DNA of 60,374 nt, taken from contig JANQSL010000261.1 in NCBI GenBank assembly GCA_028284075.1, positions 1 to 60,374 on the forward strand. Direction: 5' to 3'. The translations under genes were made by a program, and so were the position numbers. The first letter of the stretch is position 1. The number at the start of each line of letters is the position of its first letter. Below, in pieces: positions 8,409 to 23,436 of this stretch. The notes under the pieces are model-generated. The model was not told where the DNA came from, searched no databases, and saw nothing but the letters and a program-made list of their open reading frames with translations. The stretch comes from Candidatus Sumerlaeia bacterium (GTDB taxonomy: Bacteria; Sumerlaeota; Sumerlaeia; SLMS01; JAHLLQ01).

Positions 8409-9647
8409 TCAGTTGTCATTCGACTCAAGATAAACAGCCAACAACGGCAGGTCGAGGTCCTTGCCTGCTTCTTCACCCAGTGCGTAGGTCCTGTCGGCCA
8501 TCGCGAGGAGGTATATCAGGCCGAGCCCAAACAATGATCCCAGGAAGAGTGCCGCGAAGACAATCATCTTCTTTTTTGGGGCGAGAGGCTCCGGATTGAA
8601 GTTGGGAGCCTCCAGTTCAACGATGCTCCCTCGCCGCTTGAGCGTCGTTCCCTCGGAGAGAAGAATCTTGTGGTACTCGGTGTTGATGTCGGAGTATTGC
8701 CGGCGCGCTTCACGAACTTCCCATCGAAAACGTTCGTGTTCCAATGCCAGCTGAGCCTGCTCGGAAAGTCCTTCAAGATTCTCCTGTAGCAGGTCGAGGC
8801 TGCGTCTGATATCTTCATCGACGCGTGTGACTTCGTCGCTGGATTCATCGAAGCGTGAAAGCAGTTTTGTCCGTTCGAGTCTTAATTCCATGAGTTGCCG
8901 CTGGATGTACGGAACGGGACTTACGTCGACGACGTCACGTGTGAGTGCCATTGTTGGTGCTCCCTGAATGAGCGACGTGTCCCCAAGAGGGTCGATTGTC
9001 GCAATGCCGGGATGTTTTTGCTCGAACTCGCTGAGCAGCATCTCCCGCCTGTCCACTTCCTCCCGCAGGAGATTCAGTTGGCCCGAAAGGAACGACTTGT
9101 ATTCGTTCACTTCTCCCATAAGGATATCCAGGTACTTCTCACGGTAATTGCTGATGATCGATCTGACGACATTCTGGGCAAGCTCCGGATCGTTACACTT
9201 GCATCCAACAACGAGTATTTCCGGATTCACCACATCGACCCAGACCTGCTCTCGGAGAGCCTTCAGGGACCAGGCCATCTGGGAGCGATCATCAAGTCTC
9301 TCTTTCGGTTCCCTGTCGGATGAGAAGAATCTGCTCCAAATGGAACGCGAAGGAGGCGGATTCTCGATGAGGTCCAGATTGTGAATTACCGCCTCAAGAA
9401 CAGGGTTGGACTTGAGAATTTCGCTTTGGACGCGAATATGAGTGTCCTCCTGTGGGCCCTGACGCCTGATTTTCAGGAGGTTGCTTTCCTCCTGCCGCTC
9501 CTTGATCCAAACTTTCGACACGGAAACATAGGAGGGTTCCGTTCGAACGATCATCAGCATTGCGAAGACCACGGAAATCGCAGGAGGAATGATCACAAGG
9601 GCTCTTCGTCTGAAGAGAATCGTCAGGACAGGGCGGACGAAATTCAT
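8409..9647 (-). CDS. Wzz/GumC-like chain-length determinant (polysaccharide co-polymerase)
   Basis: A 412-residue protein. The chosen ATG at 9647 (MNFVRPVLTILFRRRALVII) overlaps the stop of the upstream gene by four bases. One membrane helix lies at about residues 15-35 and a second near the C-terminus (MIVFAALFLGSLFGLGLIYL). The periplasmic part between them is rich in heptad-like coiled coil (LERTKLLSRFDESSDEVTRV and following). This two-helix, coiled-coil layout is that of Wzz/GumC co-polymerases, which set chain length and link the inner-membrane polymerase to the outer-membrane export protein. It carries no kinase domain; a very reduced kinase-like protein is encoded just upstream. Confidence 0.88.
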   Translation of the reverse strand: MNFVRPVLTILFRRRALVIIPPAISVVFAMLMIVRTEPSYVSVSKVWIKERQEESNLLKIRRQGPQEDTHIRVQSEILKSNPVLEAVIHNLDLIENPPPSRSIWSRFFSSDREPKERLDDRSQMAWSLKALREQVWVDVVNPEILVVGCKCNDPELAQNVVRSIISNYREKYLDILMGEVNEYKSFLSGQLNLLREEVDRREMLLSEFEQKHPGIATIDPLGDTSLIQGAPTMALTRDVVDVSPVPYIQRQLMELRLERTKLLSRFDESSDEVTRVDEDIRRSLDLLQENLEGLSEQAQLALEHERFRWEVREARRQYSDINTEYHKILLSEGTTLKRRGSIVELEAPNFNPEPLAPKKKMIVFAALFLGSLFGLGLIYLLAMADRTYALGEEAGKDLDLPLLAVYLESNDN

Positions 9648-10066
9648 GGGAATCGCATCAGCTTTCTGACGAATCGTGGAATTGCCTCTTTGTGTCCTGT
9701 GGCAACGACTCCGAGTGGAACAGTTTCGTATCGGACGATGCATTGCGCCAGTTCACGGACATCACTGCGATCGGTTACTTGAACTCGCACGACAATGATT
9801 GCCGCGTCTGCGGAGCTTATCTTTGAAACGCTGTCCGGATCATGCAGAAAGCCATCGATGGAATCAATCATGAGACGTTCAGGTTTGGAGGACTCTGGCC
9901 CGTTTTTCTGGAGCTCATCGAGAGTCGCTTTGACGCGTTCCGTGATGAGAGAAGCTCCTTCTCCTTTGAGCGCACTGATGAAAAGGAAAGCCCGATGGCC
10001 ATTCATCCGGTGGGCGGCGAGGAGATCTTGTGCCAGAGATCGCGAAGGGTCAGAGCGATAAGTCAC
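9644..10066 (-). CDS. Reduced CpsD/BY-kinase-like protein without the Walker A lysine
   Basis: A 140-residue protein that keeps the outline of the CpsD/CapB/Wzc ATPase domain. It has FLFISALKGEGAS at residues 27-39 where the family has the PGEGKS P-loop, a Walker B-like LMIDS at 65-69, and ADAAIIVVRVQVTDRSDVRE followed by PLGVVATG, which match the end of the fold. The P-loop lysine is replaced by alanine (A38), and there is no C-terminal tyrosine cluster. The family is usually about 200-240 residues. It uses a GTG start at 10066 within a GTGA overlap with the export gene. It likely has a structural or regulatory role with the Wzz-like protein rather than kinase activity; that is inference. 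Confidence 0.75.
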   Translation of the reverse strand: MTYRSDPSRSLAQDLLAAHRMNGHRAFLFISALKGEGASLITERVKATLDELQKNGPESSKPERLMIDSIDGFLHDPDSVSKISSADAAIIVVRVQVTDRSDVRELAQCIVRYETVPLGVVATGHKEAIPRFVRKLMRFP

Positions 10067-12954: not shown

Positions 12955-13293
12955 TCATGCATCCAGCGGTACAAGAGCGTCTTCCACACTGTCATAGATA
13001 TCCAGGGACTTTGTCATATTCACGAGGCTCAGAACTGACAATGCCTGGTCATTCAGTGCCGCCAGGCGTATTTCTGCGCCCACAGCATCAACTTTTCGGC
13101 ATAGAAGCAGGATTGCTCCCAGCCCCGTTGAATCCATAAAGGTGATGTTACTCATATCAAGAACAACCATCGGCTCTGGGCACTTAAAGGATTGTACAAA
13201 GCTTCGAAACTCTTTGCTGGTCTTTACATCCAGACATGTTTCCGTCGGCTTGACGATGATCACGCCTTCTTTCTCGATTGTTTCGACACTCAT
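12955..13293 (-). CDS. STAS-domain anti-sigma factor antagonist-like protein
   Basis: A 112-residue single STAS domain of SpoIIAA type. The segment FMDSTGLGAILLL holds the serine (S55) that partner-switch kinases phosphorylate in this family. The start at 13293 has a strong AGGAGG ribosome site that sits inside the end of the preceding gene. STAS proteins in polysaccharide clusters, such as SypA of Vibrio fischeri, control biofilm production by partner switching; a similar role here is inference. No matching HPK/RsbW-type kinase or PP2C phosphatase is encoded in the window, so partners must lie elsewhere if the switch exists. Confidence 0.88.
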   Translation of the reverse strand: MSVETIEKEGVIIVKPTETCLDVKTSKEFRSFVQSFKCPEPMVVLDMSNITFMDSTGLGAILLLCRKVDAVGAEIRLAALNDQALSVLSLVNMTKSLDIYDSVEDALVPLDA

Positions 13294-13296
13294 TTA

Positions 13297-14760
13297 TTAT
13301 ACCTCCTGAGGAGTTTCTCGTAAATAATCACTGTCGGGGGGCGAGTGCTTCGCGGGAATCATGCTATAGCAAAATCCCAGGACAGCGAGGCGTAGGTCAC
13401 GCCACCCTGAGCAGCTCGAAATATAAAATGCATTGGAACCCTGCTCCTGGATTTCGAAAGCATTATCCGTGCGTGCGTGGTCGATCTCCGCCAGAGTGAA
13501 AAAGCCTGGCGGAGCACTCAGTGCCACGAGGCGGTCCTGCTCCGACAGGTGCATCATGGCTTTGTGAGTCCGTGGAGGCAGGCCAACCCATGCAAGTTTG
13601 CCCATGGCAACTCCCGCGAGCATTGGCAGCTTGCGAATCAAAGGGACGGAGACGATTCGGTCCCAGGTTGGGTTGCCCGTCGAAGTAAAGGTCAGGATGG
13701 AACTTCTCCTCCAAAGGAGGGGGTTTGCCGGTGCGGGTGTTGCGATGATCGTGAGTTGGCGGAGTGCGTGCCGTCCATCGATGAGCAGGGCCGCGACAAC
13801 GAGGATCAGAAGAAATGGAAGTGAGAGAATCGACAGGATTCCCGCGAGCAGGATACCGCTGGCTCGCAGGAAGCTGAGGTGATGGCTTCCGTGTACAGAG
13901 CCCAACATCGATGCGTCAGCAATACAAACGGAGCTCCTGCCTTCCAGTGCCAGGCAATGTGGTGCTGCCATTTTGTGTGAAAGGTCAAGCTCCTCTCCGA
14001 CGAAAGTGTCTGATAACACCACTGCTTCGGTGGCGGTAACATGCTCACTTACGATGCAGTTGCTTTCGATTGTCGCATTCGGTCCGACCACAGTGTTTTT
14101 CTCGATTGTGACATCCCTTCCGATGAAAACGGGCGGTATAATCTCGGCCGTCGGATGGATTGACACGTTGCGGCCAAGCCAGACTGAGTCTTCAGGATTT
14201 GCGGCGGGAACGATGATATCCGGCCGCTGATTATTGAGAACGGCTTTGGCCGAGTAACGAAAGTCGTCCGGCGTCAGGCAGGATAGCAAAGCAGCACTTG
14301 AGGCAAGCTGCACCGGCGAAGAGGTTTCTTCATCATGTAATTCCCAGGAGGAAAGGGGACCTTCAAGGACGCTTGAGGCAACATGAGGAAGGCAATCCGC
14401 ATATGCCAGAATCGCACGTTTGCCCTTTCGCCACTTTGCAAACATCTGTCGGGCTTTCTCATCGTTTCGAACGGGATGGACAGATATCTTCATCCCCCAG
14501 CGCTCTCCGTCTCCGACGAACTCCACCACCTGGTGACTCATGCGATTGGTGAATAACTTGACGTGCCTTACCCCAATCCGATGAAGTTCACCGAGCAAAC
14601 GCGATAAAAACGGGTGGCCAACAAGGGGACGAAGAACCGGATGATAATCGAGAGCAAGGTCACCCCATTCCTCACTCAGATCGGACACAATCAAGCCTGC
14701 ACGCTCTGCAATATCAGAACTCAGATCGCTGCCATGAAGAGCTTTCTCATCTGCTGGCAT
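13297..14760 (-). CDS. Nucleotidyltransferase-like/beta-helix/pseudo-phosphoglycosyl transferase fusion
   Basis: A 487-residue protein beginning at the ATG at 14760, which shares one base with the upstream stop (TGATG). Residues about 20-110 resemble a sugar-1-phosphate nucleotidyltransferase (VLRPLVGHPFLSRLLGELHR), but the GxGTRL nucleotide loop is absent. Residues about 193-256 are hexapeptide (left-handed beta-helix) repeats (NVSIHPTAEI, VFIGRDVTIEKNTVVGPNAT). A membrane helix spans about 301-327. The C-terminal part aligns with the phosphoglycosyl transferase encoded just upstream: RKLPMLAGVAMG with WVGLPP here, against DELPQLWCVFIG with LVGPRP. The catalytic DE dyad has become R376-K377. 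It looks like a membrane scaffold built from inactive enzyme domains; that is inference. Confidence 0.7.
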   Translation of the reverse strand: MPADEKALHGSDLSSDIAERAGLIVSDLSEEWGDLALDYHPVLRPLVGHPFLSRLLGELHRIGVRHVKLFTNRMSHQVVEFVGDGERWGMKISVHPVRNDEKARQMFAKWRKGKRAILAYADCLPHVASSVLEGPLSSWELHDEETSSPVQLASSAALLSCLTPDDFRYSAKAVLNNQRPDIIVPAANPEDSVWLGRNVSIHPTAEIIPPVFIGRDVTIEKNTVVGPNATIESNCIVSEHVTATEAVVLSDTFVGEELDLSHKMAAPHCLALEGRSSVCIADASMLGSVHGSHHLSFLRASGILLAGILSILSLPFLLILVVAALLIDGRHALRQLTIIATPAPANPLLWRRSSILTFTSTGNPTWDRIVSVPLIRKLPMLAGVAMGKLAWVGLPPRTHKAMMHLSEQDRLVALSAPPGFFTLAEIDHARTDNAFEIQEQGSNAFYISSCSGWRDLRLAVLGFCYSMIPAKHSPPDSDYLRETPQEV

Positions 14761-15590
14761 CAGTAGGCTCCTTTCCCCGTCACGACTGCCGGAACGGTCA
14801 TCAGGAGAAGCTTGATGTCCAGCCAGATACTTTGACTCTGTATGTATTGTTCGTCGAGCTGGACCTGCTCTTTGAAGGCTATATCCCCGCGTCCGGAAAC
14901 CTGCCAGATGCAAGTCAGGCCCGGCTTGATTTCCAGGCGGCGGCGGTCCTGGATTGTATAGAGCGCCACTTCACGCGGCACAGGTGGACGAGGTCCCACG
15001 AGGGACATGTCACCGATAAACACGCACCACAACTGCGGCAATTCATCGAGGCTCGTTCGCCGAAGAAGCCGGCCGATCCGCGTTACACGAGGGTCCCTTT
15101 TCATCTTGAAAGTGACCGAATCGCGGTGGTGACTTTGGGAAAGCAGTTTGTCCTTCAACTTCTCGGCATCTGCGACCATGGAGCGGAACTTTGGAAAATC
15201 AAACTCGCGGCCCCACTTGCCGACACGCTTCTGGACAAAAAAGACAGGACCTTCTGGGTCTTCCAGAATAATCAGAATGGCAATGAGCAGGAACAGGGGA
15301 GAAAAACAAATGAGTGCACATCCGCTTACGAGAACATCGCAGGTCCGCTTCAGCCCGTGGGAAAAGCCGATGGCGGACTTCCATAGCAAAACCCTGCGGT
15401 AGTACCTCAGGGAAGCGGCACGCTGACCCTGTGCTGAATAACGAGCGGCTGCACGTCGGACGAGCTGAGATCTCTCAGGGTTCCTCCGTGACAGAGGAGA
15501 GGGCTTCTTCGAGGCGGCATTCGACCCGTTGCTCCCGTTACGGGATCGATCCTGGCCTGCGGCGGAGTGTTTGAGGGTAATATTGCTCAT
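14760..15590 (-). CDS. Polyisoprenyl-phosphate sugar phosphotransferase (WbaP/WcaJ C-terminal type)
   Basis: A 276-residue monotopic phosphoglycosyl transferase, the initiating enzyme of the pathway. It moves a sugar-1-phosphate from a UDP-sugar to undecaprenyl phosphate. After a polar N-terminal 75 residues comes the re-entrant helix (CDVLVSGCALICFSPLFLLI), then KFRSM, the catalytic dyad D182-E183 in SLDELPQLW, SLVGPRPPVPRE, and KPGLTCIWQVSGRG. All hallmark motifs are present. It lacks the long N-terminal helices of full-length WbaP/WcaJ. It is the first gene of the operon. The ATG at 15590 is preferred by domain extent; an in-frame start at 15647 is possible, and neither has a strong ribosome site. 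Confidence 0.92.
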   Translation of the reverse strand: MSNITLKHSAAGQDRSRNGSNGSNAASKKPSPLSRRNPERSQLVRRAAARYSAQGQRAASLRYYRRVLLWKSAIGFSHGLKRTCDVLVSGCALICFSPLFLLIAILIILEDPEGPVFFVQKRVGKWGREFDFPKFRSMVADAEKLKDKLLSQSHHRDSVTFKMKRDPRVTRIGRLLRRTSLDELPQLWCVFIGDMSLVGPRPPVPREVALYTIQDRRRLEIKPGLTCIWQVSGRGDIAFKEQVQLDEQYIQSQSIWLDIKLLLMTVPAVVTGKGAY

Positions 15591-15711: not shown

Positions 15712-18700
15712 TTATTCCAGATTGAGCCAGATGGAATTCACGGAGCTGGTTAAGAGGAACTCCACCGGGTCTTCGAGATTGCCCGATCCGTCACTGCCAC
15801 GGCGGAAACCATTCCAGAGTGGCTCATTTTCAGCCAGAGAGACTTCTGTGGAAAGGAGGCCCAGAACTCCCGAGTGAGAGCCGTAGACCACATCAAGAAA
15901 TCCGTCGTCGTTTACGTCCCCCACGGTTCCTGTCGTCAGGATGAGGGCACCTGCCTCCTGCGTGAAGTCTTCCAGCACCGTTCCGTCTGTCGCCGAAACG
16001 ACATTCAACCGGCCTGAGTCATTGCCACAGAGGATTTCCACGACCCCGTCCCCGTCGATATCGGCGGGGAATGGCGAAGCATTTATCCCTGAGGGTGTCG
16101 CGACAGGGAATCCGGTCAGGTTGATTCCCGCGCTGCTCCATCCATAAACGGATCCGTCAAGAGAGCCGACGAAGACTTCAAGCAGTCCGTCTTGATCGGT
16201 GTCCGCAAGCATCGGCGAGGAAGGGCCACCAAAGAACCGGCGCGTTGGCCAGCCCTGGAGATGAATACCACGATTATCGATGGCATGGACAAAGGCGTTG
16301 TTCGTCGCGATAATGATGTCATTTGTTCCATTTCCGTCGATATCGCCAAGTGCGGGACTTGCGAAGACCTCTGCACTCAGATCGATCGGGAACCCGGGAA
16401 TTTGAGATCCGTCGGGGTTCATCACATTGACGACACCATCCGCACTCACCGCGATGATTTCCAGTTCCGGATCAACATCCATGTTCGCCAGTGCAGGTGA
16501 GGGCGTCAGAACAGTGTGACCCTGCGAGTCGAAAGCCTCACCGATCACGATGGGTGTGTTTGGCCGGCTGGAGAGCATCTCCGCATCGAGGATGTACAGG
16601 AGGGAATCACCTGTCTGCACAACAACCTCGTCATTTCCGATGCCATCAATATTGGCGATCGCCGCCGTGCCTTTGATTGTTCCATTGAGAGCCGCCATGT
16701 CGTAGTCGATTAGGTTCAGACTTGAATCCAACGTCCAAACATGAAGACTACCGCTCTCGTCGCCACGAAACACCTGGCAATGTCCGTCGACATTCTGAAA
16801 CAGGGCCGGACTACTCTGAGACGTCTGGTTTTTGTCGTTATCCTGAGGCGTCAGTGTGAGAACCGGAGTTGTGATGTCGGTACCGCTGAAAACCTGCACG
16901 CGACCGTCGAAGAGTCCCGCGAATATCTCTTTGGCCCCTTGCCCATTACAGTCAATCGATACTGGCGTTCCGGAAATCGCCTCGCTTACCACGTTTTTCA
17001 GGCTCGCGGCCCCCGAGCCAGCGATGGAGGCTTTTGCACTGGAAATCACTGTCGGCCATGTATTGTTTCGATCAACGTTTTCAAGCGGCCAATTAAGTTC
17101 CTGAGTACGCCCGGAAAGCATATAGGCGTTGAACAGACCATGCGAGTCCCAGGCTGGAGTACGTTCCCATGGATGTTCCCAGGCGCCGGGAACGAGAATG
17201 GACTGCTGAATCGGGTACCCCAGCAATTCCGCATCCGGATAGAGAATGCCCGAAACAACGTCCTGGGATCCTGTGTCGAAGAACCAGGGATGAGTGACGA
17301 CCTCGTCGGTTCCGATGACTTCGATCGACGCACCATACAGGAACGCGAAGTGTTCGTCCAGATGAAGAGTGACGGGGTTGTCATCGACACGCGGGTTGGA
17401 ATCCGGCTGCAGAACGGTGACCGAAACTTCAGTCTTATGGCCTTTGATGCGTTGTTCCTCAGACTGTGCGGGATCCGTGTTTGCCGCAAACGGTGCGGAC
17501 CCGTTTCCCCATCCGGGCAACGCGTCTTCCGTTGATTCAAAAAGGACGATACCGGCTACAGGATTGTCGCTTGATATGAAATTCTCCTGGGACAGAAGGG
17601 CTCCGCCGCTGTCGTAGCGATTGATACTGACATCGGCCCCACCGGAGATGTTCAAATCAAGGACGACCCGATGGTTAAGTGTCGCACCGCGGGCTTCCAG
17701 CTCCGTGACCAGGTTGATTTGTGTCAGTTCATCATTCTGATTATACGTTTCTTCCGGAATGAACTGTATAATCACATCGTTGTAATCGAAATCGTTAACC
17801 GTTTGTTGAAGAAGGTCTTCGAACGCGATGCGATATCCGGCCTGGAGATTCGTAACATCTGCGGTGGAGTAGGTGTTCGCATTGCCTCCGTTGTCATTGG
17901 TATCTCCCGTGCGCTCGCCCGTCAGGTCCGACCCCTCCGGAGTCGAGGCGACCGATCCCTGCTGTCCCGTCCAGCTCAGGCTGGATCCATTGCTCAGCGT
18001 GGTTTCGTTCGTGATATCGGAATTCAAGACAACCTTGAACGTTACCGTACTGGACTCCCCGGGTTGAACGGCCGGCCAACTCAGGTTTAGAACATCTGAT
18101 GCAGGGAAATCAGAGATCGGTAAGAGGCCATCGACAAATTGCAGTGTACCGGAAACGAAAGCGACTTCAGCCGGAAGAGCATTTTCAAGGAACACATCAT
18201 AGGCTGTGAGGTCCCCATCTCCATTCGCATTGGCCACTGTTAGTTGATAAAGGACCTCATCACCCGCTTTTGCGGCGAGAGGAGCCTCCAGAATTTGCAA
18301 ATCCAACGTGAGGCTTGGCTCTCGAATGGTGAGAGACGCTGTGTTTTCCTGACCGCTGCCCCCTGCGTAAAAGGTTTGAACACTGTTGGAGAGAACCGTA
18401 CCCGCAACGTTACCTGCAATATTTGTTACGACGGCATTGTACTGAATTGTGATTGTCTCCGTTTCGCTGTTTTCGCGGTTTGTGTTGTTGATCGAACCAA
18501 TCGTCCAGGTGAGAGTCTGGCCGTCCGGTGAGACGGAAGGTGCAAGGGGTGAAACCAGATTGCCCGCCTGTCCATTAACCTCAACCGAGGCACTGACAGC
18601 GAAGGTCTGTTGCTGAAGGAATTCCATCCCGATGGGCAGGACATCGCGAACTTCGAAATTGCTGTAACTGGCTTCCGCCACATCGACGACGATGTCGTAG

Positions 18701-21700
18701 GTCACGATTTCGCCAATCGTCACATCAAGGTTCGCCGTATGATCCAGACTCGTATCCGTGATGGATTTGATTGCGTTCGTGCCTCGTACCTGAATATCGA
18801 CGAAAGAGGTGTTGTCGCTGATCCGCTCCTCCGGATCCAGCCCGGGAAGGGATGACCACGCACCTGTCACGATGTTTGTGAATCGGTCTGTGCCTTCGAC
18901 ATCTCCTGGCACACGCGCGGTAAACGTGAAGCTCACTTCATCGCCCAGAGGCAGGGTGAAGTTATCGAGAAGGACCGGATTAAGGGTGCTTCCATCCCCT
19001 GTCAGTGGCGGGAGATCGATAGTGCCGCTCCCCTGTTGAGACACGGGCCCGAAAGCAATGAATTCAAGATCCGGTGGCAGCAGATTTGTGATGGCGGTGT
19101 TGTGAGCGGGAAGGGCACTTCCTGTAGCATGTGAAAGCGTAACAGTGTACTCGACAATGTCACTTGCATCCGGGTAGGCGTTGTCAACAGTCACGCCGAT
19201 ATCAAGGACCGCTTCGCGGACAAAGGCATTGACGCGGGAATTGGCGGCGAGACTGCCATCCTGGAACAGCTGTGCGTTATTGCGCAGGCGGTCTCCGTTA
19301 ATGTTTGCCGCGTCGTCTTTCACCAGAGCCGTGTAGCGAATCGTAATATCTTCCGGAGAATCGTCACCGTCCGGCAGGTTGGTAATCGTTCCGAAATCAA
19401 TCTCAAGCCTGTCAAGCAGTCCGTCTCCAAGCCTGTTGTCGCTCAAAACAGGAGTGTTCGCCGAAACGGAAAATGCCGGATCGATGGAAGTGATCTGAGC
19501 ACTCAGGAGTTCCATGGTATTGGGAAGCTGATCCTGAAAGCGAACGTTCTGCGCCGTCGACTCAGGGACGGAAATAGACACGTCGTAAGTCACAATCTCG
19601 CCGATGGCGACGTTGTTTCCAGTTGTGAACGTCTCCGATGTCTCGGCGATGGTTTTGGAGACGACAAAGGTCTGAATCGTCACTGTTTCATCGCCACTCA
19701 CCGGACCAAAATTCGAACCGCCTGTCGGAACGCTGAAGTAGTCAGCAGCAGCCGTATTGAGCAGCACTTCGCCAGGATACACACTGGTCGATGTGGATGC
19801 CTCGTATCGAATGACCACCAGACCTTCGTTTTCGGATGTGGAAGGATTATCTACCGGAACCATCGCCCGGGTGGACCCATTGGCATCGCGGAAATAGAAG
19901 GAGAGTCCTCCGCTGCCATCATCCATGACCACAGGTGAACTGGCAATGCTGGTGTCGGAATCATCAAGGATGGTGACAGACCCTGCACCATCAAAACTCA
20001 GATTCGGCGGGAGCTGATCGCTTACCAGCGGCACGTAAGCAGGAGCTTTACCTGTGTTTTCCAAACGAATTTCATACTGAATGGTGTCTCCCGCCTGGAG
20101 AGGGTCGGGGACGGTTACCACATTCTTTTCGATGGTAAGGAACGGGAAGCTCAGGCTGAATTCGACTTCGTCTTCAAACGTATCGATAACATTTTGTTCG
20201 TCATCTTCATAGGATCCGACACCAACGTTTCGTGTGGTGATCAGCCCCTCAGAAGACAACTCCTCCGGGCGAATGTCACGGACCGGTGTGGTGAATGCCC
20301 AGGCAAATACGGCCCCGGGAGCCACTTCGTTGAAGTTGAACTCGATTCCGTTGTTAATAATCAGATCCGGATTGGTGATGTTGTTGAAGTCCGAGTCGGG
20401 TGTACCGTCGCGGTCATCATCGTTGATTGGAAGAGGGTTTCCGAAAATGTCCGTTTCATTTGCGGCCACGATGAAGCGGGATGTGGAGATGGAATCGTTT
20501 GGTCCCGTAATCAGTGGAAGGTAATCCGTGATTGTGACGCCGAGGGTTCGAACATCGGGAAATCGGGCGATGAGCGCGAATTCAAGAAGGCTTCCCGCTT
20601 CTATGATCACGGAAGACGCATCGAACACAGGAGTACCTCCGGTGGCGTCGTACAGAGTTCCGTCCGCGGTTCTTACGGAGAGCAGGACCTTCTCGATCGT
20701 TGGACGCGGATTGGTGAAACAACTCGCGGAGCTGTCGCTGGTTGCGAGACCGTCAAGGAGAGACTGCGACTCCGAAGCGTCATCGATCAGAGCCTCCGCT
20801 GTTACCGTGTTGACGAGGGTTTCACTCGCTTCAAAATCGACTTCACCGGGACCTTCGAAAAGATCATCGATCACGAAGTCGAAAGAGATACTGCCCGTTG
20901 AAGCGGGAGACAGACCTTGTCCCTCAGCAAGGAGAAACCGGATCTCCGTATCTCCCGTGACAGGGTCGGCAACACCACTGGTTGGATCAAAGGTCCACCG
21001 GGATGCTTCTGCACCGGAAGTGACTACGCTTGCCACTCCTTCAAACGCGGCCCCGTCAGTCAGGGTGTAGCGAATAACACCCGGACCACGAAGACCATAG
21101 TATTCCGAGACGCTGTAATTGACTGTTGCCGTGACAAAATCACCGATCACGACTTCCCCTGCCGACAGGCTCGTGTTAATCGCGAGGAATTCCGCCTCAA
21201 CATTTTCCGAATCGCCCTGGCCGAGAAGGGCATTCGGTAATGCGCTTCCGTTATAGTCAGCGGAAACAATGTCGAAGGTTGTTGTGCTCAGCTCACCGCC
21301 ATCGGTCACGTCGAAGCCGTCGAGGATGAGATCATTGAGGTCGGTGCTGTAGAGAACAGAGCCGCTCGAGGGAGTCGTCAGAGGACTCGTCGAATTCGTG
21401 ATCCGGTATTTCGGGATGGCGCTTCGGTATTCGATTTCGACCGACTCATCCACGCCCAGTTCAGCCAGAGTGAACCGTAGCGTCGTCTCTCCGGGGGATG
21501 GCTCGTTTGCAAGAGCGCTTGCCGTGAGACCCGCGGGGAGGGACGCGGGTCCGAAACCAAGGAATTCACGCGTATTAGCCAGAACCTCCTCGAAGACAAT
21601 ACTCTCAACCGGTGCCAGGCTGTTACCCTGGAGACGTATCGCATTCGTGAAAGCATGGGTTTGAGTACCCGTTGCTCTTTCCGTTTCGACAACACTCGGC

Positions 21701-22431
21701 TCGGAATTTGCCGTGAAGGCGATGATATGAACCTGGACGGAAGAGGCATCCCGTTGATCGTAAGCGGTCCATTCTGAATCACTGAACACTGGCGCACTCG
21801 CCGGTGCGTCGTCATCCGCCTCGGGAAGGGCCGACGCACCACTTGGAACGGAAAAATCGACGCCCCCGAAGGTTGTTCCGGGGGGGGCGTCTGCCGGAGG
21901 AACGCCCCGCTCAAAGGGACTGTCGTCGGCATAGGCATTGGCAAAAACATCGAACATCGATCCAGGTGTCAGAGATGAAGGAGCCTGGAGCTGCAACGCG
22001 TAGCTTGTCCTGTCTCCTTCGCGAAGCGCGTCGGTTGTCTCGAAAGCAATTACCCGGCGACCAGGAAAGGTCGTTGTATCTTCGAAGAGCAACTGACCAT
22101 TCACCGGAGGAGAAGAAAGCGTCACATCAGCGGGTACATTAACAATCAAACCGATGTCGAAGGCCGATCCCTCGCTCGAACTCTCATTTTGAACGTCTAA
22201 CCTTAACGCGAACGTTGAGCCTGCAAGAACTCCGGATACGTTGAATTCGGGATCCGGCGCGTAGCCGGAACCACATCCGCCTCCATTGCCGAATGATGCC
22301 ACGGGCACGGACAGATCCAGCGTTAAATCAAGATCCAGACTTCCGTCTGTGTCTGCTCCCTGCCCCCACACGATGAGTGGGAGAGATCCCAGCAGGACTA
22401 GTGAAAGAGATTTTATCGTCGTCAACTTCAT
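15712..22431 (-). CDS. Giant secreted DUF11-repeat/LruC-like/FG-GAP surface protein
   Basis: A 2,239-residue protein with a Sec signal peptide (LVLLGSLPLIVWGQG). Acidic beta-sandwich repeats of DUF11 type, each ending in a DxLPxxx(E/S)F-like strand, recur at roughly 150-residue spacing near residues 760, 917, 1067, 1210 and 1364. Around 1537 is a LruC-like domain (AFEDLLQQTVNDFDYNDVII). Residues about 1810-2200 form an FG-GAP/VCBS propeller with DxDxDG calcium loops (DIDGNGTNDIIIATNN, DTDQDGLLEVFVGS, DIDGDGVVEILCGN). No C-terminal sorting signal is evident. It is likely a cell-surface or matrix adhesin; its place beside the exopolysaccharide operon suggests co-function, which is inference. 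The ATG at 22431 is chosen because the signal peptide follows directly. Confidence 0.88.
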   Translation of the reverse strand: MKLTTIKSLSLVLLGSLPLIVWGQGADTDGSLDLDLTLDLSVPVASFGNGGGCGSGYAPDPEFNVSGVLAGSTFALRLDVQNESSSEGSAFDIGLIVNVPADVTLSSPPVNGQLLFEDTTTFPGRRVIAFETTDALREGDRTSYALQLQAPSSLTPGSMFDVFANAYADDSPFERGVPPADAPPGTTFGGVDFSVPSGASALPEADDDAPASAPVFSDSEWTAYDQRDASSVQVHIIAFTANSEPSVVETERATGTQTHAFTNAIRLQGNSLAPVESIVFEEVLANTREFLGFGPASLPAGLTASALANEPSPGETTLRFTLAELGVDESVEIEYRSAIPKYRITNSTSPLTTPSSGSVLYSTDLNDLILDGFDVTDGGELSTTTFDIVSADYNGSALPNALLGQGDSENVEAEFLAINTSLSAGEVVIGDFVTATVNYSVSEYYGLRGPGVIRYTLTDGAAFEGVASVVTSGAEASRWTFDPTSGVADPVTGDTEIRFLLAEGQGLSPASTGSISFDFVIDDLFEGPGEVDFEASETLVNTVTAEALIDDASESQSLLDGLATSDSSASCFTNPRPTIEKVLLSVRTADGTLYDATGGTPVFDASSVIIEAGSLLEFALIARFPDVRTLGVTITDYLPLITGPNDSISTSRFIVAANETDIFGNPLPINDDDRDGTPDSDFNNITNPDLIINNGIEFNFNEVAPGAVFAWAFTTPVRDIRPEELSSEGLITTRNVGVGSYEDDEQNVIDTFEDEVEFSLSFPFLTIEKNVVTVPDPLQAGDTIQYEIRLENTGKAPAYVPLVSDQLPPNLSFDGAGSVTILDDSDTSIASSPVVMDDGSGGLSFYFRDANGSTRAMVPVDNPSTSENEGLVVIRYEASTSTSVYPGEVLLNTAAADYFSVPTGGSNFGPVSGDETVTIQTFVVSKTIAETSETFTTGNNVAIGEIVTYDVSISVPESTAQNVRFQDQLPNTMELLSAQITSIDPAFSVSANTPVLSDNRLGDGLLDRLEIDFGTITNLPDGDDSPEDITIRYTALVKDDAANINGDRLRNNAQLFQDGSLAANSRVNAFVREAVLDIGVTVDNAYPDASDIVEYTVTLSHATGSALPAHNTAITNLLPPDLEFIAFGPVSQQGSGTIDLPPLTGDGSTLNPVLLDNFTLPLGDEVSFTFTARVPGDVEGTDRFTNIVTGAWSSLPGLDPEERISDNTSFVDIQVRGTNAIKSITDTSLDHTANLDVTIGEIVTYDIVVDVAEASYSNFEVRDVLPIGMEFLQQQTFAVSASVEVNGQAGNLVSPLAPSVSPDGQTLTWTIGSINNTNRENSETETITIQYNAVVTNIAGNVAGTVLSNSVQTFYAGGSGQENTASLTIREPSLTLDLQILEAPLAAKAGDEVLYQLTVANANGDGDLTAYDVFLENALPAEVAFVSGTLQFVDGLLPISDFPASDVLNLSWPAVQPGESSTVTFKVVLNSDITNETTLSNGSSLSWTGQQGSVASTPEGSDLTGERTGDTNDNGGNANTYSTADVTNLQAGYRIAFEDLLQQTVNDFDYNDVIIQFIPEETYNQNDELTQINLVTELEARGATLNHRVVLDLNISGGADVSINRYDSGGALLSQENFISSDNPVAGIVLFESTEDALPGWGNGSAPFAANTDPAQSEEQRIKGHKTEVSVTVLQPDSNPRVDDNPVTLHLDEHFAFLYGASIEVIGTDEVVTHPWFFDTGSQDVVSGILYPDAELLGYPIQQSILVPGAWEHPWERTPAWDSHGLFNAYMLSGRTQELNWPLENVDRNNTWPTVISSAKASIAGSGAASLKNVVSEAISGTPVSIDCNGQGAKEIFAGLFDGRVQVFSGTDITTPVLTLTPQDNDKNQTSQSSPALFQNVDGHCQVFRGDESGSLHVWTLDSSLNLIDYDMAALNGTIKGTAAIANIDGIGNDEVVVQTGDSLLYILDAEMLSSRPNTPIVIGEAFDSQGHTVLTPSPALANMDVDPELEIIAVSADGVVNVMNPDGSQIPGFPIDLSAEVFASPALGDIDGNGTNDIIIATNNAFVHAIDNRGIHLQGWPTRRFFGGPSSPMLADTDQDGLLEVFVGSLDGSVYGWSSAGINLTGFPVATPSGINASPFPADIDGDGVVEILCGNDSGRLNVVSATDGTVLEDFTQEAGALILTTGTVGDVNDDGFLDVVYGSHSGVLGLLSTEVSLAENEPLWNGFRRGSDGSGNLEDPVEFLLTSSVNSIWLNLE

Positions 22432-23436
22432 GGCAACACCCGTCAAAGTATTTGAAAAACACATATGGAAGAAGTGTGCCAGCAGGATTTTCAGTTTCTT
22501 GAGATTCTTAAATCTCTCCCAAAAGCAAGAATGCTGATAATAGAAGATTTAATTTCATTGAATGATATCAAATATGATAATCGCTCCTAAATTCATGAAT
22601 ACCACTCTCGGAGATAGAATCCGCCTGCCCAATTTCAAGGCAAAGTTAGCTCATTTTCAGTGATGAGACATGAAAACACAGTGACAAACTCCGAGCCACT
22701 GTTGCTTTGAAAATATCTGACAGGCCACGTTCGGCAAAGAACCTCACGAGTTGGTGGAGCAGGTCATTGCATCGCAGATGGCAATCCGATGTCGATAAGC
22801 AGGCATTCCTGAGTGGGTTCCTGGATCACAGCCAATAGACGAAGCGGTGCTCCTTGCACGATTGTTCCTGCAAGAAAGTGTGGATCCCGACATGATCGTA
22901 ATATCGCGACTGAAGGCGAATATGGAAATCTTCATTAAACTACAACCAGGCACATTCGGGCTGTTATTTCGGCACCCTCAGATTTCTCACCTCACACGAA
23001 CGATAGATGCGTTTGTGGTTCACCCGTCAACCGCCTCAGCGAAGAAGAGCCGCTATGCTACAGGGTGGTTTCCATGTTGTCCAAAGCGCTTTGCCAGAGC
23101 GATTATGTCCACGGCTCTTCGCCTGTCGCCCCACCGCTCGCGGCGTTCACGGAGCCCGGCTGGTGTTTCCTAAATATTGGTTTTATTGTGAATCGTGGAA
23201 AAACTACAAGTTATCGCCTCAGAATCCTCCAACGGCTTAACTACAAACCGCCGAAGGAGGATTGATCTCTCGTCGAGAAGCGGAAGCGTGCGCAGCTGTG
23301 AAGTATCTGAACCACAGGCCGTCCTTCGGAATGCGGTCCGCTATTTTTAATGATCACACTTCGGGACTGGCCACTCGGATTCATGAAATCAAGACAACCA
23401 GAAGGGTTCAGTCCATGGCGAGAGCAAACAATGGAT
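22432..23436. other. Gene-poor kilobase between giant protein gene and deacetylase gene
   Basis: I find no recognisable gene here. Open frames up to about 108 codons exist on both strands but lack family motifs, low-complexity signatures or good ribosome sites. Bases 22480-22700 are markedly AT-rich and probably hold the promoter of the giant gene. They include a small hairpin, GAGATT-CTTA-AATCTC, at 22501-22516, and a partial palindrome ATCAAATATGAT near 22567. The rest (22700-23436) could be decayed coding sequence, but I cannot identify a parent. Confidence 0.5.

Follow-up and report, generated by a model that had tools for sequence, protein, structure and literature searches.

The initiation of polysaccharide assembly uses undecaprenyl phosphate, which is scarce, and its post-translational control is largely open. 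In Myxococcus xanthus, the phosphoglycosyl transferase (PGT) EpsZ is bound and activated by EpsW (PMC12802240), and the STAS protein SypA controls the syp polysaccharide through a target that is unknown (PMC8256260, PMC4517449). An inhibitor of GMPPB is its paralogue GMPPA, a dead nucleotidyltransferase/beta-helix protein (PMC11228364). Within the window, i.e. the whole stretch of 60,374 nucleotides analyzed here from a Candidatus Sumerlaeia bacterium, we find a protein (hereafter the window protein) that combines, in this order, a nucleotidyltransferase-like domain, a beta-helix of hexapeptide repeats, a single membrane helix and a PGT tail.

The tail is homologous to the small monotopic PGTs of the PglC type (PF02397), with which the membrane helix and the positions of the core motifs align; unlike these enzymes, however, the window protein is devoid of Asp-Glu, KFR(S/T)M and PRP and possesses the fused nucleotidyltransferase-like and beta-helix domains. 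As in the GMPPA/GMPPB pair, a dead nucleotidyltransferase/beta-helix protein accompanies an active enzyme, but the active partner is here a PGT, and the dead protein is additionally anchored in the membrane and carries a dead PGT. Similarly, in EpsW-EpsZ an initiating PGT has a phosphoregulated partner encoded in its own locus; EpsW, in contrast, belongs to the response regulators and exerts its effect on the active PGT itself, and neither a dead PGT nor a STAS protein is involved. STAS, serine kinase and phosphatase functions residing in or acting on polysaccharide loci are likewise found in SypA-SypE and HmpUVW (PMC8256260), whereas here STAS lies next to a dead PGT fusion, and several genomes also have it fused to a WecG-type glycosyltransferase. 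In the literature searched, whose scope left out most subscription journals, no paper on a pseudoenzyme PGT was found.

Domain architecture and catalytic residues of the window protein

The 487 codons of the window gene contain no stop, compared with about 18 expected in base-shuffled sequence (P about 6e-9), and the GC content at the codon positions is similar to that of the neighboring genes (Table 1). Hexapep (PF00132) matches the beta-helix with 35.3 bits, above the curated Pfam cut-off of 27, while the nucleotidyltransferase/beta-helix matches in NCBIfam are weak. At the position of the GxGTRL nucleotide-binding loop of nucleotidyltransferases (PF00483) the window protein has SDLSEEWGDL, and about 80 residues are missing from this domain.

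Table 1. Features of the window around the fusion gene.
Feature	Position	Strand	Basis
Three-domain fusion protein, 487 aa	13297..14760	minus	ATG at 14760, stop at 13297, uninterrupted frame
Nucleotidyltransferase-like domain, residues 23-165; shortened, no GxGTRL loop, PK lysine replaced	14266..14694	minus	13-15 bits, fusion-family profiles
Left-handed beta-helix, hexapeptide repeats, residues 190-275	13936..14193	minus	Pfam Hexapep; 52.7 bits against fusion profile
Hydrophobic helix, residues 296-328; corresponds to the membrane helix of PGTs and keeps its Pro	13777..13875	minus	Alignments; helix in model
Pseudo-PGT tail, residues 377-460	13381..13632	minus	Bac_transf match; PGT profile against shuffles; Foldseek to PglC/WbaP
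Arg376-Lys377 codons at catalytic Asp-Glu position of PGT	13630..13635	minus	Alignments
Intact small PGT, 276 aa; SLDELPQ, GPRP and KFRSM present	14760..15590	minus	Bac_transf 219.7 bits
Single-domain STAS protein, RsbV/SpoIIAA type, 112 aa, DSTGLG motif	12955..13293	minus	Pfam STAS 55 bits; TIGR00377 59 bits, above cut-off
2250-aa surface protein, immediately upstream of PGT; contains DUF11 and FG-GAP repeats	15715-22464	minus	

The Pfam model Bac_transf (PF02397) matches the tail over residues 377-460 with 20.3 bits (E 4e-4), under the cut-off of 27 bits. With a purpose-built PGT profile the tail reached 18.1 bits, whereas none of 20,000 shuffled sequences exceeded 8.8. The whole protein scored 77 bits, colinear through all three domains, against a profile of five fusions with an intact catalytic dyad (best of 5,000 shuffles 6.9) and 117.5 bits against a profile of 11 other fusions lacking it (best shuffle 5.6), the latter in a single continuous match covering residues 134-437. 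Chance similarity of the tail to PGTs was thus ruled out by the shuffled controls. The score with the profile of the dead family also exceeded that with a profile of the active family (88.8 bits). Since the entire three-domain protein fits the family of dead fusions, an origin by recent duplication of the neighboring PGT was rejected. For the tail, an AlphaFold model with a pLDDT of 74.5 was matched by Foldseek to PglC and WbaP with a probability of 1.00; as the best E was just 1.8e-3 and PGTs were part of the input alignment, we regard this match as supporting evidence only. The full-length structure predicted from a four-row alignment had a pLDDT of only 38.7 and could not be used.

The alignments are unambiguous in showing that the catalytic Asp-Glu is replaced by Arg-Lys (SLDELP to PLIRKLP), and the KFR(S/T)M and PRP motifs are likewise lost. 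The PGT catalytic residues have hence disappeared from the window protein, while its inactivity as an enzyme is inferred from this loss in the absence of activity data. A previous sequence-only reading had described the gene as encoding a membrane protein of three degraded domains. The coordinates, reading frame and membrane helix that it gave were confirmed, as were the missing GxGTRL loop, the change to Arg-Lys and the PGT-like tail, for which profiles, shuffles and Foldseek agree; the lack of any PGT match, which would have refuted the proposal, was not observed. The description as degraded held only in part, the beta-helix being intact and the nucleotidyltransferase-like domain being shortened in addition to the loss of its loop.

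Dead and dyad-intact relatives

In total, 17 further nucleotidyltransferase/beta-helix/PGT fusions were found, six of which keep Asp-Glu and 11 of which do not. When 386 genomes were searched with the window protein as query, three long proteins (in genomes G098, G365 and G279) were recovered that match across the beta-helix and the tail and carry QR, HK and RR, respectively, at the position of the dyad. A profile search of 251 genomes from the phylum of G098 added eight more dead copies, all from one family and with NR or HR. Thus, the 11 dead relatives, from three other genome groups, have QR, NR, HR, HK or RR where intact PGTs have DE, and in all 12 dead fusions including the window protein Glu is replaced by Lys or Arg and Asp by Arg, His, Gln or Asn. 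None of these 11 relatives retains the dyad, the second outcome that would have spoken against the sequence-only reading. Bac_transf scores range from 46 to 91 bits in these relatives, and the nucleotidyltransferase domain is retained in all members of the fusion family. Chloroflexus is, as we take it, among the bacterial groups carrying dead fusions.

Closer to the window genome the fusion is rare. A census of all PGT domains in 40 genomes of its phylum revealed no clear in-frame degraded PGT other than the window protein; a fusion, with its dyad intact, occurs in one further genome. The window gene itself is absent from the 39 other genomes. Gene clusters of the same phylum that are orthologous by way of the 962-aa export protein lack the fusion and have no STAS gene nearby. 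Scans of the named genome collection returned no relative of the window protein and, for the fusion at locus L040, only Ca. Abyssobacteria SURF_17 and one weak match.

The six dyad-intact fusions belong to genomes G035, G125, G209 (Ca. Abyssobacteria SURF_17), G062, G080 and G472. No second PGT was found near any of them in the 12-20 kb fetched around each, and a STAS gene was near two. In G035, which is of the same class as the window genome, a protein of window-like architecture with an intact dyad (P0002, L026:1305-3035) is preceded by a STAS gene and a gene for an RsbW-like HATPase (L026:401-3035), and at L199:5411-7591 a STAS gene likewise precedes a dyad-intact fusion, again with no second PGT nearby. 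Both arrangements are possible forerunners of that of the dead fusions. Most dyad-intact fusions have already lost or altered the GxGTRL loop, and its loss may therefore be old. In P0002, GLWA replaces the GPRP motif although Asp-Glu is kept, and the activity of this protein is therefore uncertain.

In a tree of 18 proteins, dead and active fusions were separated by one branch (support 97/96). Judged from these residues, one branch of the fusions appears to have lost PGT catalysis, in each case with a separate intact PGT encoded alongside. With an end branch of 3.58, the window protein has diverged further than any other member, and the length of its branch leaves its exact place unsure. In five Chloroflexus-like genomes, dN/dS was about 0.12 for the dead PGT tail, 0.07 for its former catalytic core and 0.04 for the adjacent intact PGT. 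These values are rough, as synonymous sites are saturated (dS about 2), but their low level demonstrates that the dead PGT domain is under purifying selection in these genomes. The state of the window copy cannot be deduced with certainty from its relatives, since it is the most diverged and lacks a close orthologue within its phylum.

Pairing with an intact PGT and STAS genes

As the sequence-only reading had pointed out, the window gene directly follows that of an intact PGT; the stop of the latter and the ATG of the fusion share one base (TGATG). The STAS gene begins 3 bp past the stop of the fusion. This pairing of dead fusions with neighboring PGT and STAS genes recurs throughout the set. 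In G098, G365 and G279 the fusion gene comes immediately after an intact PGT, with STAS domains adjacent to it, and for each of the 12 dead fusions the distance to an intact PGT, encoded on the same strand, is at most 1.8 kb and that to a STAS-domain gene at most 83 bp. In the 1.5-kb flanks of ordinary PGT loci no STAS gene occurred (0/78). As nine of the 12 dead copies derive from a single family of genomes, the G098 family, these counts amount to about four independent lineages.

In most members of this Chloroflexaceae-like family (including locus L153), the operon comprises genes for the PGT, a WecG-type glycosyltransferase with STAS, the dead fusion, a STAS protein, a SpoIIE phosphatase, an RsbW-like HATPase and a response regulator; all three genes of a partner switch, i.e. 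STAS, HATPase kinase and SpoIIE phosphatase, are accordingly present. The WecG-STAS gene is missing at this position in G597. The order is PGT, WecG with STAS and dead fusion in G365, and WecG, PGT, dead fusion and a receiver-STAS protein in G279, where the STAS domain is fused to the receiver domain and its usual serine is missing. The WecG/TagA-type glycosyltransferases at L153:6611-8233 and L154:5290-6813 carry two fused STAS domains; thus, a second enzyme of the pathway bears a phosphoswitch domain.

The window operon contains the STAS gene only, and neither an RsbW-type kinase nor a SpoIIE phosphatase gene is present in it. On another contig of the window genome (G000:C172, locus L099), apparent SpoIIE-like, STAS and HATPase genes are consecutive, and this set is a possible source of kinase and phosphatase for the window STAS protein.

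Proposed role in initiation and alternative explanations

On balance, we favor the view that the window protein is a maintained non-catalytic subunit of a PGT initiation complex under the control of a STAS partner switch. A non-catalytic partner of the initiating transferase had been proposed by the sequence-only reading and is supported by the pairing and the loss of the dyad; the association with STAS, RsbW and SpoIIE, which points to control of that partner, had been missed. Binding to the PGT, control by STAS and the direction of the switch are inferred, and no interaction or activity data exist. In this model, the membrane-anchored dead fusion would bind or scaffold the intact PGT and, in the Chloroflexaceae-like genomes and G365, may also hold the STAS-bearing WecG-type second glycosyltransferase. 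The adjacent STAS protein would set the state of the dead fusion, binding when unphosphorylated, being released upon phosphorylation by an RsbW-type kinase and being restored by a SpoIIE-type phosphatase, so that synthesis of lipid-linked repeat units would be switched post-translationally at its first step. A bolder interpretation, which in our estimation may as well be wrong as right, is that STAS switches in polysaccharide loci have their missing target in the conserved pseudo-PGT and that the phosphoswitch acts not on a sigma factor but on a membrane complex of dead fusion, intact PGT and STAS-bearing second glycosyltransferase, thereby toggling the initiation of repeat units. A dead relative kept under selection beside a live PGT and a STAS switch is a concrete candidate for control of initiation and suggests a yet undescribed control of the first step of polysaccharide assembly; proteins like the pseudo-PGT might also be what STAS regulators such as SypA act on.

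Alternatively, the dead nucleotidyltransferase/beta-helix part might act as a sensor: on binding a nucleotide sugar or a sugar phosphate, it would regulate the adjacent PGT by feedback, with STAS as a separate input or acting on the glycosyltransferase. The domain order and dead site resemble those of GMPPA-type paralogues, a GMPPA chain is the second-best match among solved structures (PMC11228364), and the nucleotidyltransferase domain is conserved in every member. However, the domain of the window protein is shortened and lacks the ligand-contacting loop and the PK lysine, and sensing alone would leave unexplained the STAS gene within 83 bp in 12 of 12 cases. We consider this explanation, in which ligand binding is inferred, to be unlikely.

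Still less support exists for two further explanations. If the fusion were still an enzyme by virtue of its nucleotidyltransferase domain, it might feed activated sugar to the PGT at the membrane; GSGERLRPLT is kept in the G279 relative, and several members score 70-90 bits with NTP_transferase. This is very unlikely, however, as the GxGTRL loop is absent from the window protein and most relatives and the window domain is about 80 residues short. The gene of the window lineage might also be a functionless, decaying relic, given that this copy is the most diverged, has the smallest PGT remnant and is absent from the 39 other genomes of the phylum. Against this stand 487 stop-free codons despite extreme divergence, the neighbor-like GC content at codon positions, the tight coupling to PGT and STAS and the retained features of the dead family, and we regard decay as very improbable.

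Elsewhere in the window, the gene of a 140-aa protein (9647-10066, minus strand) is flanked by those of the export protein and the chain-length protein. The 140-aa protein has no significant match in Pfam or NCBIfam. Visual inspection suggests similarity to a tyrosine-kinase/ParA-like domain whose Walker A motif is broken (ALKGEGASLI), and on this basis the protein might be speculated to be a pseudokinase.
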